From Rhodobacter calidifons (GTDB lineage: Bacteria; Pseudomonadota; Alphaproteobacteria; Rhodobacterales; Rhodobacteraceae): a DNA stretch of 64,000 nt. How positions within the stretch are numbered: the stretch's first letter is position 1; the number at the start of each line of letters is the position of its first letter. The notes below the pieces were generated by a model. That model was not told the DNA's origin, did no database searches, and was given only the letters and a program-made list of their open reading frames with translations. The stretch lies in assembly GCF_011174775.1 (NCBI RefSeq), contig NZ_JAANHS010000006.1:1-64000 (forward strand), given 5' to 3'. The translations under genes were made by a program, and so were the position numbers. Below are positions 25,989 to 32,435 of the stretch, one piece after another.

Positions 25989-26294
25989 ATGACCACTCAC
26001 TCGAAATCGCTGGTGATTGCCGGCGCGCTGGCCACCGCCCTGTCGGGCCTTGCCGGAATGGCTTCGGCCCAGGAAAACGAGAAGTGCTTCGGTGTCGCTC
26101 TGGCCGGGCAGAACGACTGCGCGGCGGGCGAAGGCACCACCTGCGCCGGCACCTCGAAGGTCGATTACCAGGGCAATGCGTGGAAGCTGGTTCCGGCCGG
26201 CACCTGCGAGACGATGGAACTGCCTGCGGGTGGTGACGGGATGGCCCGCAAGGGCTCGCTGACGCCGCTGGAGCGCGATCTGCCCGCGGCCTGA
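25989..26294 (+). CDS. bufA: Bufferin-type RiPP precursor (DUF2282)
   Basis: The 101-residue secreted peptide has a Sec signal sequence (residues 1-27, cut after ASA) and a mature part with four cysteines (33, 44, 52, 73). They lie in the DUF2282 framework [27 protein letters not shown] and LVPAGTC. DUF2282 proteins are precursors of bufferins, periplasmic copper-binding peptides whose cysteines are modified by a DUF692 (MNIO) enzyme with a DUF2063 partner. That exact gene set follows here. A GAAGGGA site precedes the start. The 134-bp region between the thrS terminator and this gene must hold the operon promoter. The bound metal in this organism is inferred, not shown. Confidence 0.9.
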
Positions 26295-26303
26295 CGGCCA
26301 TGG

Positions 26304-26324
26304 CCCCGGCCCTTCCGGCCGGGG
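26304..26324 (+). promoter_or_regulatory. Intercistronic hairpin between bufA and bufB
   Basis: A perfect 8-bp stem (CCCCGGCC with GGCCGGGG, 5-base loop) lies 9 bp past the bufA stop, followed by CGCCTTT. It could attenuate transcription, so the precursor is made in excess over the modifying enzymes. Confidence 0.6.
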
Positions 26325-26346
26325 CGCCTTTCCGATGGGGGACACG

Positions 26347-27192
26347 ATGCTTGACCAGACCTTCGGCCTGCCTGCCCGTCCGGGTGTGGGCTACAAGCCG
26401 CAGCATTTCAACGCGATCCTCGCCGATGCAGGTCCGGTCGGCTGGCTGGAGATCCATGCCGAGAATTACATGGGCGAAGGCGGCCGTCCGCTGGCCCAGC
26501 TGCGGCATCTGGCGGAACGCTTTCCGATTTCGGTGCATGGCGTGGGTCTGTCGATCGGCGGCGAGGGGCCGCTGGACGCGGATCATCTGGCGCGGCTGAA
26601 GCACCTTTGCAATTGGCTGAACCCGGCCAGCTTTTCCGAACACCTGGCCTGGTCCACGCATGACGGGGCCTATCTCAACGATCTTCTGCCCTTGCCCTAC
26701 ACGGCGGCGACGCTGGCGCGCGTGGCAGATCACATCAATGAGGTGCAAGAGGTGCTGGGGCGCCGGATGCTTCTGGAAAACCCCTCGACCTACATTGCCT
26801 TTGCCGAGACGACGATGGGCGAGGTCGAGTTCCTGACCGAGATCGCGCGCCGCACCGGCTGCGGCCTCCTGCTGGACGTGAACAACGTCTATGTCTCGGG
26901 CATCAATCAGAACTACGACCCTTTGGGGTACCTGGACGCCTTTCCGCTGCATCTTGTGGGCGAGGTCCATCTTGGCGGCCATGACGAGGACCGCGACGAC
27001 CACGGGCGCAGGCTTCTGATCGACAGCCACGGGGCCGAGGTGGTGGATCCGGTCTGGGCGCTGTACTCCCGGGTGATCGGCCGCGCGGGGCCGCTGCCGA
27101 CGCTGATCGAATGGGACAACGATGTGCCGGACTGGCCGGTGCTGGCGGCCGAGGCCGCGCGGGCCTCGGCGGTGCTGGAGCCGGTGGCATGA
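26347..27192 (+). CDS. bufB: MNIO-family (DUF692) RiPP-modifying oxygenase
   Basis: This multinuclear non-haem iron oxidase homologue is about 281 residues and would act on cysteines of the DUF2282 precursor. TIM-barrel metal-binding motifs are visible in order: [62 protein letters not shown] and LIEWDND. The start at 26347 has a GGGGGA site 4 bases upstream; an ATG 12 bp earlier is also in frame. The stop overlaps bufC by 4 bases (ATGA). Confidence 0.92.
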
Positions 27193-27920
27193 CCCAGTCC
27201 CGGTTCGCGGCGGCCCTCCTTGACCCCGAGGCGCCGGTCCCGGCGGGTATCGTGGGCCCGGATGGGCAGGCCGCGCCCAGACGGTTTGCCGTCTATCGCA
27301 ACAACGTGGCCCTGTCGCTGACCCGCGCGCTGGAGGCGGCCTTTCCGACCCTGCGCAAACTGGTGGGCGAGGCCTTCTTTGCCGCCTTGGCCGGGGATTT
27401 CCTGCGCGCCCATCCGCCACGCTCGCGGATGCTGATGCTCTACGGGGCCGAGATGCCGGAGTTTCTGGCGCAGTTCCAGCCGGTGGCGCATCTGGGATAC
27501 CTGCCCGACGTGGCGCGGCTGGATCAGGCGATGCGCGAAAGCTATCACGCGGCCGACAGCCGGGCGCTGCCCGAGGCCGAATTCCAGCGGCTGGTCGGCG
27601 CGGATATCGCGGGGCTGCGCCTGCTCCTTGCGCCCTCGCTGCGGCTGGTGCGGTCCGCCTGGCCGGTGGTGTCGATCTGGGAGGCGAACCACGAGGGCGG
27701 GGCCAGCCCCCGCGCCGTGGCCGAGGATGCGCTGGTGCTGCGGCCGGAGTTTGACCCGCGGCCCTGGCGGCTGCCGGCCGGGGGCGGGGCCTTCGTGGCC
27801 GGGCTGATGCAGGGCCTGACTTTGGGCGACTGCGTGGACCTTGCAGGGCCGGACCTGGACCTGGTGGCGGTGCTGGGCGTGATGATCGCGGGCAAGGCGA
27901 TCACGGGGGTAGTGGAATGA
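27189..27920 (+). CDS. bufC: DUF2063 protein, partner of the MNIO enzyme
   Basis: The 243-residue protein has the DUF2063 signature: [15 protein letters not shown], the conserved [32 protein letters not shown] and [22 protein letters not shown]2063 proteins are thought to bind the precursor or assist MNIO enzymes. It is coupled by ATGA overlaps to both neighbours, so all three downstream genes are likely translated together. Confidence 0.9.
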
Positions 27921-28456
27921 ACGCTGTCATCGGGATCTATCGCGCGCTGGCCGGGCTGGCGGCGCGGCAGGGCGACTGGCTGCTGCCGACGCTGGCGCGG
28001 CTGGTCTTTGCCGGGGTGCTGTTCGGGTATTTCTGGGCCTCGGCGATGACCAAGCTGGAGGGGCTGTTCACGCCCTCGACCGGGGCCTATGCGCAGATCT
28101 TCCCCCGGGCATTCGAGGCGGTGGGCTACGACGTCGGGCAGTTGGGGCTCTGGCACTGGCTGGTGGTGCTCGCCGGCAGCTGGGCGGAACTGGCGCTGCC
28201 GGTGCTGATCGTGCTGGGTCTTCTGACACGGCTGGCCGCCCTGGGGATGATCGGCTTCGTCCTGGTCCAGAGCCTGACCGACATCTGGGGCCACGGCGCA
28301 GCGGCAGGAACCTGGTTCGACCGCGCCTCGGATGCGCTGATCCTTGACCAGCGGGCGCTCTGGTTGCTGCTCTTTGCCGTTCTGTTGTGCAAGGGGGGCG
28401 GGGCGATCTCGGCGGATCGTGTCCTTGGGGTTGAGCCAACTCGCCTTGCGGCTTGA
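27917..28456 (+). CDS. DoxX-family membrane protein of the bufferin operon
   Basis: The 179-residue integral membrane protein has four likely transmembrane helices: LARLVFAGVLFGYFWAS; the HWLVVLAGSWAELALPVLIV region; LAALGMIGFVLVQSL; and ALWLLLFAVLLC. This is a DoxX fold. A DoxX protein commonly closes bufferin operons and may handle redox or export. Its start overlaps bufC by 4 bases. The N-terminal LPTLARLVFAGVLF and FTPSTGAYAQIFP are typical of this subgroup. Confidence 0.87.
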   Translation: MNAVIGIYRALAGLAARQGDWLLPTLARLVFAGVLFGYFWASAMTKLEGLFTPSTGAYAQIFPRAFEAVGYDVGQLGLWHWLVVLAGSWAELALPVLIVLGLLTRLAALGMIGFVLVQSLTDIWGHGAAAGTWFDRASDALILDQRALWLLLFAVLLCKGGGAISADRVLGVEPTRLAA

Positions 28457-29630: not shown

Positions 29631-29680
29631 GGGGGTCTCCTTTGAGGGGAGGTAGGGCGACGCGGCGCGAGGGGTAGGGT

Positions 29681-29731
29681 GTGTGATCTCACGCACCGCT
29701 TGAACGGTGGGTGGTGCGTGCGATCACGCAC
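29681..29731. repeat. Imperfect 17-bp inverted repeat at the edge of the AT-rich gene
   Basis: The left arm GTGTGATCTCACGCACC pairs with the right arm GGTGCGTGCGATCACGCAC (two mismatches) across a 15-base spacer. The spacer itself holds CACCG/CGGTG. It lies 19 bp past the DUF262 gene and 51 bp before the DUF2177 start. It could be a terminator, an operator or a boundary mark of the insertion. Confidence 0.55.
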
Positions 29732-29749
29732 ATTACGACTGGCTGCTAC

Positions 29750-31528
29750 CTATGAGAAACGCTTAGCAATCGACAGGGTTTCAGCAAGACTGTTGGCCTT
29801 AACAGTCTGGTCGCCCTTCCGGAGAAACACTGCTTCGCCAACCGAAGACACACCACTTTGAGCAGGAACTGTTAGAACAAGAACGCCCAAGCCAAAGTAG
29901 TCGTGGTAGTCCATGTTTGCCAATAGTGTGCTCTTCAGGTCCTGTGAAAGCCCCGAATTTTCAATATAGTTGCGCACCTTATGGACGTACGCTTCAACGG
30001 TGAGTCCCATGCGTGTTGCCTCCCGATTGATTCCAACAACAAAACGCGAACCAACTCGTCTCGCCTTCACTCCATTGACTTCTTGAATCGTCTCCGCGTC
30101 CTTTGCCTTGTCGCAAACACCAATTACTATCTTTCCGATCCGCTCAGGTCCGTTATTTGCAATCGCACAAGCGGTCTGAACGATTTTCTCAAGCATTGGC
30201 TGCATGTCTTGGCCCGCGCCAACAATTGGAAGAAGGCCCTGCTTCAGCTCGAAAAAGGGTAACTCGATTTGAGACCTCTTAATAGCATCTTCAATATCTA
30301 CGACCGTATGATTATTGTAGATAGACGCTGGTATGTCCTTGTCAACAACAAAATAATCTGCGATTGCGCCTTTGAGAATATTTATGTTGTCGCGCCTGCT
30401 GTCCTCTGTAGCACCCTTCTTTCCTGCATCAAGCTTGTCGCCCTTTTCTTCAATGCCTTGAGCAACCGCCGCATAGTCAGCAATTCTAGACCCCTTCTTG
30501 ATTGACAACTCGTGAAGCGCTAGAAATAGCGTCGCAAATATTGTTGGGAAAGGATTCCCCTGAGTCTTCTTGAAAAGTCGCTGCTTAAGCGGTCTGTATC
30601 CGCCCACTTCACAAATCTTCTCAATTTCACCAATGATGTACTTGAACTCATCTCTGCATTTTTCAACACCGTATGTCACTAGTCCTGCTGCGTTCTTCCC
30701 GGCGAGCTCAGTGGCCTGGTCGTATAAATCATCAAGTGAACGCCTTGATCGGTTCACTGGTTCGCCTAACACCATGCTTGCGACTAAGTCGGCAATACAT
30801 TCCTCATCCTGACTCTCCCGCAAGCCTGCCGCATTGATTATTCCGTGCTTCACCCAGAAGACTTGGTCTGCCTTCACATCATAGCCATGACGGTTAGATG
30901 GCATATCGATGCTAATGCTAGGCATTGCAAATAATGGCAGGACTTCTTCGGATACGTCCCCACGGAGACTAGCAGCAAGGTGTCGAACTGTGTCGGTAAA
31001 GTCGTTGCTTAAGCCTGCTTGCCGTCTTTCCTGATTGCTGAGTCTGTGCCCGTAGGTGTTAATTCTGCCAAAGACATCGTTTATCTCTTCATCACTCGCA
31101 TTCCGCATGACAGCTATGGACATGTTATAGTCAAGCATCTTTGCGGAGTTCGCTGTGCTCTGAGTGGGTGCGTCTGGCTCAAGTTTCGGAAAGGCGCCTG
31201 TCTTCTGCAATTCAAGCGCCGAAGGAAAGCTATCAATGTTGAAGTAGAGACCGTCAGCTGACTGGAAAGCTCCCTCGATGAAGGTCAGGATTGCATTGAG
31301 CCGCTGCAAACCATCAATAATCTCATACACTGGTTGTTCGCCAGGGAGTTCCGCCAATATTATTGCAGGGATCGGGTAATTGTTATTTACGGATTCGATC
31401 AGCTTTCTTTTCTCCTCAAGTGTCCATACTAGCTTTCTCTGATAGCGGCGATTGACAATTAATTGCGCATTCCTGTACCAGCCATATACGGTCTGAATTG
31501 ATCTCGGAACTGAACTAAGCTCGGCCAT
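29750..31528 (-). CDS. DUF262 plus AlbA_2 (Schlafen-like) fusion, candidate phage-defence protein
   Basis: The 592-residue protein has an N-terminal DUF262 (GmrSD-like) domain. It shows RRYQRKLVW (28-36), the nucleotide-binding EIIDGLQRLNAI (69-80) and VFGRINTYG (152-160). The middle is helical. The C-terminal 170 residues resemble an AlbA_2/Schlafen module: ELPFFELKQ (422-430), ANNG...KIVIGV (457-471) and FLRKGDQTV (568-576). The DUF1524 HNH domain usual after DUF262 is not visible. GC is far lower than around it (38% over 30241-30300 against 63% in thyX at 31741-31800), which suggests horizontal transfer. The ATG follows the thyX stop by 1 base and uses GGGGG inside the thyX end. Confidence 0.78.
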   Translation of the reverse strand: MAELSSVPRSIQTVYGWYRNAQLIVNRRYQRKLVWTLEEKRKLIESVNNNYPIPAIILAELPGEQPVYEIIDGLQRLNAILTFIEGAFQSADGLYFNIDSFPSALELQKTGAFPKLEPDAPTQSTANSAKMLDYNMSIAVMRNASDEEINDVFGRINTYGHRLSNQERRQAGLSNDFTDTVRHLAASLRGDVSEEVLPLFAMPSISIDMPSNRHGYDVKADQVFWVKHGIINAAGLRESQDEECIADLVASMVLGEPVNRSRRSLDDLYDQATELAGKNAAGLVTYGVEKCRDEFKYIIGEIEKICEVGGYRPLKQRLFKKTQGNPFPTIFATLFLALHELSIKKGSRIADYAAVAQGIEEKGDKLDAGKKGATEDSRRDNINILKGAIADYFVVDKDIPASIYNNHTVVDIEDAIKRSQIELPFFELKQGLLPIVGAGQDMQPMLEKIVQTACAIANNGPERIGKIVIGVCDKAKDAETIQEVNGVKARRVGSRFVVGINREATRMGLTVEAYVHKVRNYIENSGLSQDLKSTLLANMDYHDYFGLGVLVLTVPAQSGVSSVGEAVFLRKGDQTVKANSLAETLSIAKRFS

Positions 31529-31529
31529 T

Positions 31530-32435
31530 TTACCCCCAAACCTCCACAAACTCCCGCCATTCCCCCTTGCTCATGCCGGAGGCCTCTTGCGTCACTGTCT
31601 CACCCGCAAGCCGCCGTTTCAAGACCGCAATCGCCTTGGCCGACAGCGTGACCCCGCCCATCCGGTAGTCCTCGAAGGCCGCATAGGCCAGGGGGACCCA
31701 GTCCTTCACACAGGCCGCAATGGCCTCGGCATAGACGCGGATTTCGTATTGGGCGTGGGGGTCGGCGCGCAGGCGCAGGAAGTGGAAGAGGTTGTGCAGG
31801 TCCACCTTCCAGTACCATTGCGTGTAGATGTTGGCGGGCAGGTTCATGCGGGCAAGCTCTCTCGCCAGGCCCTGCTGGCCGTCTTGGCTTAGCATCGCCT
31901 CGTAATGGTCATAGGCGCGGTTGGCGTCGGATTTCAGGATGTCGAGGACGCGGGCGGCTTCCTCTCCCTGCAGGACCTCGCCCCGGCCCTGGTTGTTCAC
32001 GGTGCTCTGCGCGGCGAGGTGTTCGGGGGCGGGGATGTAGAACTCACGATCCAGGATCGAGTAGCGGGCGGAGTATTCGTTGACGTTGGCGGTGCGGTGG
32101 CGGATCCACTGGCGGGCGACGAAGACCGGCAGTTTGACGTGGAGCTTGATCTCGCACATCTCGAAGGGCGTGGAGTGCCAGTGGCGCATGAGGTATCGGA
32201 TCAGGCCTTCGTCGTTCTGGACGTGTTTCGTGCCCGCCCCGTATGAGACGCGGGCGGCCTGGACGATGGCGGCATCGTCGCCCATGTAGTCGATGACGCG
32301 GATGAAGCCGTGGTCGAGGACGGGATGGGCGCGGTAGAGGTGGGCCTCCATGCCCTCGCTGACGGCGCGGAGGGTGGCGCGCGGGGTGGCGCGCTGGGCC
32401 TCGATTTCGGCGAGCTGGTCGGGGGTCAGGGGCAT
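31530..32435 (-). CDS. thyX: FAD-dependent thymidylate synthase ThyX
   Basis: ThyX methylates dUMP to dTMP with FAD and methylene-tetrahydrofolate. The 301-residue product carries the signature [13 protein letters not shown] and the flanking [24 protein letters not shown]. Length and C-terminus ([14 protein letters not shown]) are normal for the family, so the AT-rich gene inserted directly behind it has not truncated it. The start [14 protein letters not shown] at 32435 follows GGAGCC; the longer in-frame extension would run through the divergent glyoxalase gene. Confidence 0.96.

Follow-up and report, generated by a model that had tools for sequence, protein, structure and literature searches.

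A 64,000-nucleotide stretch of the Rhodobacter calidifons genome (contig NZ_JAANHS010000006.1; this whole stretch is hereafter the window) carries, directly behind the thymidylate synthase gene thyX, a single gene that fuses a DUF262 domain to a Schlafen-type AlbA_2 (SLFN/AlbA_2) domain. The fusion gene (29750..31528, minus strand) is an intact open reading frame (ORF) running from an ATG at 31528 to a TAG stop at 29752-29750; its 592-amino-acid product can be aligned over its entire length with 107 full-length relatives, and an alternative TTG start at 31549 falls inside thyX and is dispensable for the fusion ORF. The neighbouring thyX (31530..32435, minus strand), encoding the FAD-dependent thymidylate synthase, is a core gene whose 3′ end is a hotspot of gene insertion, and the ATG of the fusion gene sits one nucleotide past its TAA. 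The GC content of the fusion gene is 0.480, compared with 0.652 for thyX and the downstream DNA, and drops to 0.33 in its poorest 60-bp stretch. No mobility gene adjoins it, and a tRNA-Glu is the only Rfam RNA within the window. The earlier note, made from the sequence alone, had described an AT-rich gene of foreign composition standing alone behind thyX without mobile genes, and this description holds in full; the gene is horizontally acquired.

The N-terminal DUF262/GmrSD_N domain covers residues 24-171 (31016..31459, minus strand; motifs RRYQRKLVW, DGLQR and FGRIN) and is matched by Pfam PF03235 (E 1.3e-21) and, in Foldseek, by BrxU. The C-terminal SLFN/AlbA_2 domain covers residues 405-592 (29753..30316, minus strand), as indicated by AlphaFold2, Foldseek and Pfam PF04326, the latter with an E-value of 5.5e-5 and 24.1 bits, slightly under the curated cut-off of 25.3. 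Between them lies a helical middle of about residues 172-404 (30317..31015, minus strand), assigned from AlphaFold2 secondary structure and without a Pfam match. The GmrSD_C/DUF1524 HNH nuclease gave no Pfam match in the window protein at E ≤ 1, and NCBIfam gave no match to the protein. Among 76 aligned family members, Pfam recovered DUF262 in all and SLFN_AlbA_2 in 69, while GmrSD_C/DUF1524 was found in none at E ≤ 0.001. Because the DUF1524 nuclease is absent on testing, the protein falls outside the GmrSD enzymes. No PADLOC 2.0.0 model matched the window protein over its full length; the best matches, NsnA and PD-T4-2_A, span only residues 13-194 of the 599-amino-acid ORF.

An AlphaFold2 model computed from the window protein and 75 relatives reached a predicted local distance difference test score (pLDDT) of 91.7 and a predicted template modelling score (pTM) of 0.87 for the full chain. 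A single-sequence search of solved structures returned chance matches only, so that profile and fold searches were required. Foldseek against the PDB placed BrxU first (E 1.3e-4), paired over the whole chain, followed by DIP2311, Noc/ParB proteins, the SAMD9 tRNase domain and SLFN14. The C-terminal domain alone (pLDDT 94.3 in AlphaFold2) matched the SAMD9 tRNase domain (E 3.0e-4, probability 1.00), DIP2311 and DNA-bound SAMD9 (7ksp; both probability 1.00) and SLFN11 (probability 0.97), with SLFN14 and SLFN13 at lower probability. The model contains one AlbA_2 domain only, like the single SAMD9 domain, and no two-lobed pseudo-dimeric SLFN core. The fusion and the missing DUF1524, both proposed in the earlier note, are thus borne out by the profile and fold evidence.

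Residue conservation was counted over 108 aligned full-length family sequences, nearly all 578-609 amino acids long. Three acidic residues form a putative active site in the C-terminal domain: E422 (30263..30265, minus strand), present in 108/108 sequences and aligned with the ESxxxEFK motif of SLFN11; E427 (30248..30250, minus strand), which is E in 100 and D in the other eight; and D473 of the IGVxD motif (30110..30112, minus strand), which is D in 103, E in four and N in one. K429 and R570 are invariant. A profile alignment with SLFN11, whose weak E-value lets it serve for register only, places E422-x4-E427-x-K429 on ESxxxEFK and IGVxDKxxD on IGVDDKSKK. In rat SLFN13, E205, E210 and D248 make up the ribonuclease (RNase) site and are required for tRNA cleavage (PMC5862951), and SAMD9L depends on E198 and D243 to act against viruses and to block translation (PMC11221667). 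By fold and active site in the predicted model, the C-terminal domain is a Schlafen-clan RNase domain. The earlier note had called AlbA_2 a nucleic-acid-related domain, which is correct and can be narrowed, since the residues present are the Schlafen RNase triad. In the DUF262 half, N26-R27, Y29-Q30-R31-K32-L33, W35, E69, D72-G73, Q75-R76 and F153-x-R155-I156-N157 show no or almost no variation, and D-G-x-Q-R has a counterpart in the motif of the nucleoside triphosphate (NTP) pocket of GmrS (PMC10952713).

The full-length fusion belongs to a large family. A tblastn search found 144 plasmid records with a match over at least 80% of the protein, at 29-38% identity among the matches listed, and a profile built from plasmid relatives and run over 84,980 genomes yielded 475 confirmed relatives; the best 80 of these 475 loci gave almost full-length matches with up to 49% identity to the query. 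Further full-length members occur on viral contigs that are probably prophages. Members come from alpha-, beta- and gammaproteobacteria, cyanobacteria, actinobacteria, Bacteroidota, Verrucomicrobiota and one archaeon. None of 100 relatives of the source organism carries the full-length fusion; only other DUF262 proteins matching its N-terminal part were found there, indicating that the gene is not a conserved resident of the thyX locus, the counter-case named in the earlier note (conservation here in all close relatives, with matching GC). Together with the broad taxonomic spread, this absence points to a widespread mobile family rather than a local accident. RefSeq labels relatives, including those of E. 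coli, as 'GmrSD restriction endonuclease domain-containing protein', despite the missing DUF1524 and the SLFN domain that is present.

Members of the family lie at variable loci, including plasmids and P2-like prophages, as the earlier note had anticipated. Among 5,426 complete E. coli genomes, 28 carry a relative of about 29% identity, each time as a lone gene on the chromosome. The three loci inspected all belong to P2-like prophages, of which one is a remnant, and the relative stands there between the gene for baseplate V and one annotated as virion morphogenesis protein (tail completion). We take this position to be the Z/fun site of P2, where anti-phage genes are known to reside. Plasmid relatives occur in Polaromonas, Citrobacter, Azotobacter, Klebsiella, E. 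coli and lactobacilli, next to insertion sequence elements, pemIK, a HigA antitoxin, or a cytosine methylase with a PLD nuclease and a Z1 protein. On two plasmids, one of Pediococcus and one of Lactiplantibacillus, the relative comes after the same ordered set of genes for a dcm methylase, a PLD-type restriction endonuclease and a Z1-domain protein, an arrangement resembling a composite defence cluster. The 140 proteins around 20 chromosomal relatives matched 79 PADLOC families at E ≤ 1e-15, including QatA-D, HerA, SIR2, PDC-S02 and methylases, against 13 families, mostly Cas12f-like and MotB-like models, for 125 control proteins encoded at other places of these contigs; as overlapping models inflate the family counts and the sets differ in size, this comparison lends support and is no measured enrichment. 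No conserved partner gene emerged, and at most three of the 140 neighbours share any one Pfam family, in keeping with a system that acts alone.

The 3′ end of thyX is a recurrent, densely occupied and family-wide single-gene defence hotspot that had previously gone unnoticed. The genus sample behind this comprises the window, the 20 relatives sampled first and five genomes added later; one that ends at a contig edge was excluded, leaving 25. In the 20 first-sampled relatives, the DNA is conserved through the last bases of thyX (GAGTTTGTGGAGGTTTGGGGGT plus the stop, with few variants) and thereafter differs in each genome. An AT-rich ORF (GC about 0.44-0.51) begins within 70 nucleotides of the thyX stop in 21/25 genus genomes, and many of these ORFs start at a GTG overlapping the thyX TGA. 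Cargo within the genus comprises AbiJ_NTD4 (two), DUF262/PDC-M55C, ThsB TIR and TIR-8xMP, Fic, Trypsin_2/PDC-S45, the DRT reverse transcriptase UG13b, DUF3800, SIR2, MT-A70 and a transglycosylase-like protein; other genera hold TIR (two), RelA_SpoT, Mrr_cat and DUF4145 proteins at the site. Similarity among 33 cargo proteins is confined to three pairs, one of which joins the fusion protein to another DUF262 protein. Another species of the genus carries a different DUF262 architecture (PADLOC PDC-M55C, 536 amino acids; locus positions 974-2584) at the same thyX site. The single-gene insertion described in the earlier note is real, but it is no one-off event, the locus being a recurrent hotspot.

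The left border of the cassette is the conserved thyX 3′ terminal motif GAGTTTGTGGAGGTTTGGGGGT (31532..31553, minus strand), inside which GGAGG at 31541-31545 is a possible ribosome-binding site. The right border is marked by two near-perfect palindromes resembling repetitive extragenic palindromic (REP) sequences, GGTGCGTGNNNNCACGCACC (29678..29732; individually 29678-29697 and 29713-29732), and identity with the nearest relative (G020) starts again at about 29681. REP sequences together with a RAYT transposase gene also mark this border in many relatives. TTT286 and GTT289, both in the terminal motif, are the only rare codons conserved across thyX within the genus, where shared ancestry of the motif calls for caution. 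Family-wide, with one genome per genus, AT-rich cargo accompanies TTT at the Phe of WREF in 14/19 cases and TTC in 1/10 (Fisher P 0.0017; AT-rich being a GC drop of at least 0.10, a threshold set after the data were seen). The incoming element may bring the end of the gene with it, in the manner of integrative elements, or selection may preserve an unstructured purine-rich start region for the downstream gene, with GGAGG 7 nucleotides before the overlapping GTG. Several candidate movers were rejected. For site-specific integration with a duplicated attachment site, no second thyX 3′ motif occurs in the window or the source genome at up to three mismatches, and no obvious integrase was seen in the regions inspected. 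A search for a viral attachment site (attP) in 2.9 million viral contigs gave one exact match, outside thyX and judged to be chance. Integrons use the core site GTTRRRY, to which the junction, compared by eye, shows no fit. For RAYT/REP as the mover, RAYT genes follow many cassettes, but none follows the one in the window, and a search for RAYT gave no match in the source genome, G006 or G105. A tentative and rather doubtful scenario is that the Rhodobacteraceae-like thyX 3′ end acts as an integron-like acceptor. A site-specific mechanism would place one AT-rich defence gene there, always at the same nucleotide, and the insertion would restore the C-terminus of ThyX and provide a ribosome-binding site along with part of the start codon; the cassette here would be the DUF262-Schlafen RNase.

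Collectively, sequence analysis and structure prediction establish the domains, the fold, the conserved triad, the widespread family and the hotspot position. The explanation that we consider probable is a single-gene anti-phage or anti-plasmid effector, in which a DUF262 sensor releases a Schlafen-type endoribonuclease and which was acquired as a cassette of the thyX hotspot. From sequence and model, the window protein most probably acts as a Schlafen-type suicide RNase controlled by a GmrSD-like sensor. We infer that the N-terminal DUF262 domain, of ParB/Srx-like NTPase fold and presumably active as an NTPase, would sense an invader through a trigger such as modified or foreign DNA or an altered nucleotide state, and that the signal would pass through the helical middle to release the C-terminal endoribonuclease (E422/E427/D473). 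This enzyme would cut tRNA or another RNA and halt translation in the infected cell, an abortive outcome. The gene would have arrived as a cassette at the defence hotspot at the thyX 3′ end, where read-through and translational coupling with thyX probably drive its expression. The defence role, proposed in the earlier note as a compact defence factor, is supported by position, namely the defence-domain cargo of the hotspot and the plasmid and P2-like prophage locations. Several points weigh against this explanation: the TM-scores of the C-terminal domain to SAMD9/DIP2311 are moderate (0.45-0.53), reflecting a shared fold with considerable divergence in the model; SLFN5 keeps the triad yet showed no nuclease activity, so that SLFN/AlbA_2 can be non-catalytic (PMC8789055); and many relatives lie among housekeeping genes, not in defence islands.

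Comparison with known systems sharpens both the explanation and its alternatives. Like the type IV restriction enzymes GmrSD and BrxU (PF03235 plus PF07510), the protein has an N-terminal DUF262 with QR-x-x-VW, DGxQR and F-x-R-x-N, then a helical stretch and a C-terminal effector; unlike them, it carries SLFN/AlbA_2 with an RNase-type acidic triad in place of the DUF1524/HNH DNA nuclease. A GmrSD-like type IV restriction factor, whose DUF262 would recognise modified DNA and whose AlbA_2 would bind or cut DNA rather than RNA, would accord with the DUF262 match, the BrxU fold match, the SAMD9 AlbA_2 structure solved with DNA (7ksp) and the RefSeq label on the relatives. This is nevertheless unlikely, given that DUF1524/HNH occurs in 0/76 members and that the triad and the nearest folds belong to tRNA- or RNA-cleaving enzymes; the near-invariance of the triad suggests that the effector is probably an RNase and not the DNA nuclease of GmrSD. 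With Schlafen and SAMD9 AlbA_2 RNases the protein shares the AlbA_2 fold and the E-x4-E-x-K ... D triad, but its single AlbA_2 stands behind a DUF262 sensor, whereas Schlafens have a two-lobed core, and its RNase activity is predicted. Bacterial Schlafens are placed in anti-phage defence by a preprint, as cited in PMC12839542.

Menshen, Dazbog and PD-T4-2 (PMC10952713) and the NsnA of PADLOC likewise contain a DUF262 protein without DUF1524, and phage resistance by Menshen and Dazbog requires the DUF262 gene (PMC10952713); the window protein differs in uniting sensor and effector in one chain without a conserved partner gene. The literature searched contained neither a joining of DUF262 and AlbA_2 in one protein nor NsnA named alongside DUF262, and the available passages of a paper covering both DUF262 and Schlafen proteins contain no such fusion. 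A factor for exclusion or stabilisation of mobile elements, aimed chiefly at competing plasmids or prophages and not at lytic phage, is improbable: plasmids, both conjugative and mobilizable, and P2-like prophages do carry relatives, and the DUF262-DUF1524 protein PFLU4242 causes a plasmid fitness cost in Pseudomonas fluorescens (PMC8544851), but the C-terminal domain of PFLU4242 differs and the window gene is a lone chromosomal gene without a surrounding element. The start codon one base past the thyX stop and probable co-expression with thyX could also point to a non-defence role, as a regulatory nucleic-acid-binding protein or a ThyX partner in nucleotide metabolism. Such a role is very improbable, as many unrelated genes occupy the same spot in relatives, thyX lies beside no other family member among the annotated neighbourhoods read, and the catalytic triad is retained.

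Elsewhere in the window, the genes at 25989-28456 resemble by eye an operon for a bufferin-type ribosomally synthesized and post-translationally modified peptide (RiPP): they encode a protein that is small and looks secreted, a DUF692-like protein (26335-27192) with its apparent partner, and a DoxX-like membrane protein.

The effector favoured here would unite, in one bacterial chain, the best-known sensor of type IV restriction with the RNase fold of the antiviral human proteins Schlafen and SAMD9, and the domain evidence corrects the misleading database name of a large protein family. The hotspot, where single genes are exchanged at one nucleotide, offers a ready source of uncharacterised candidate defence genes.
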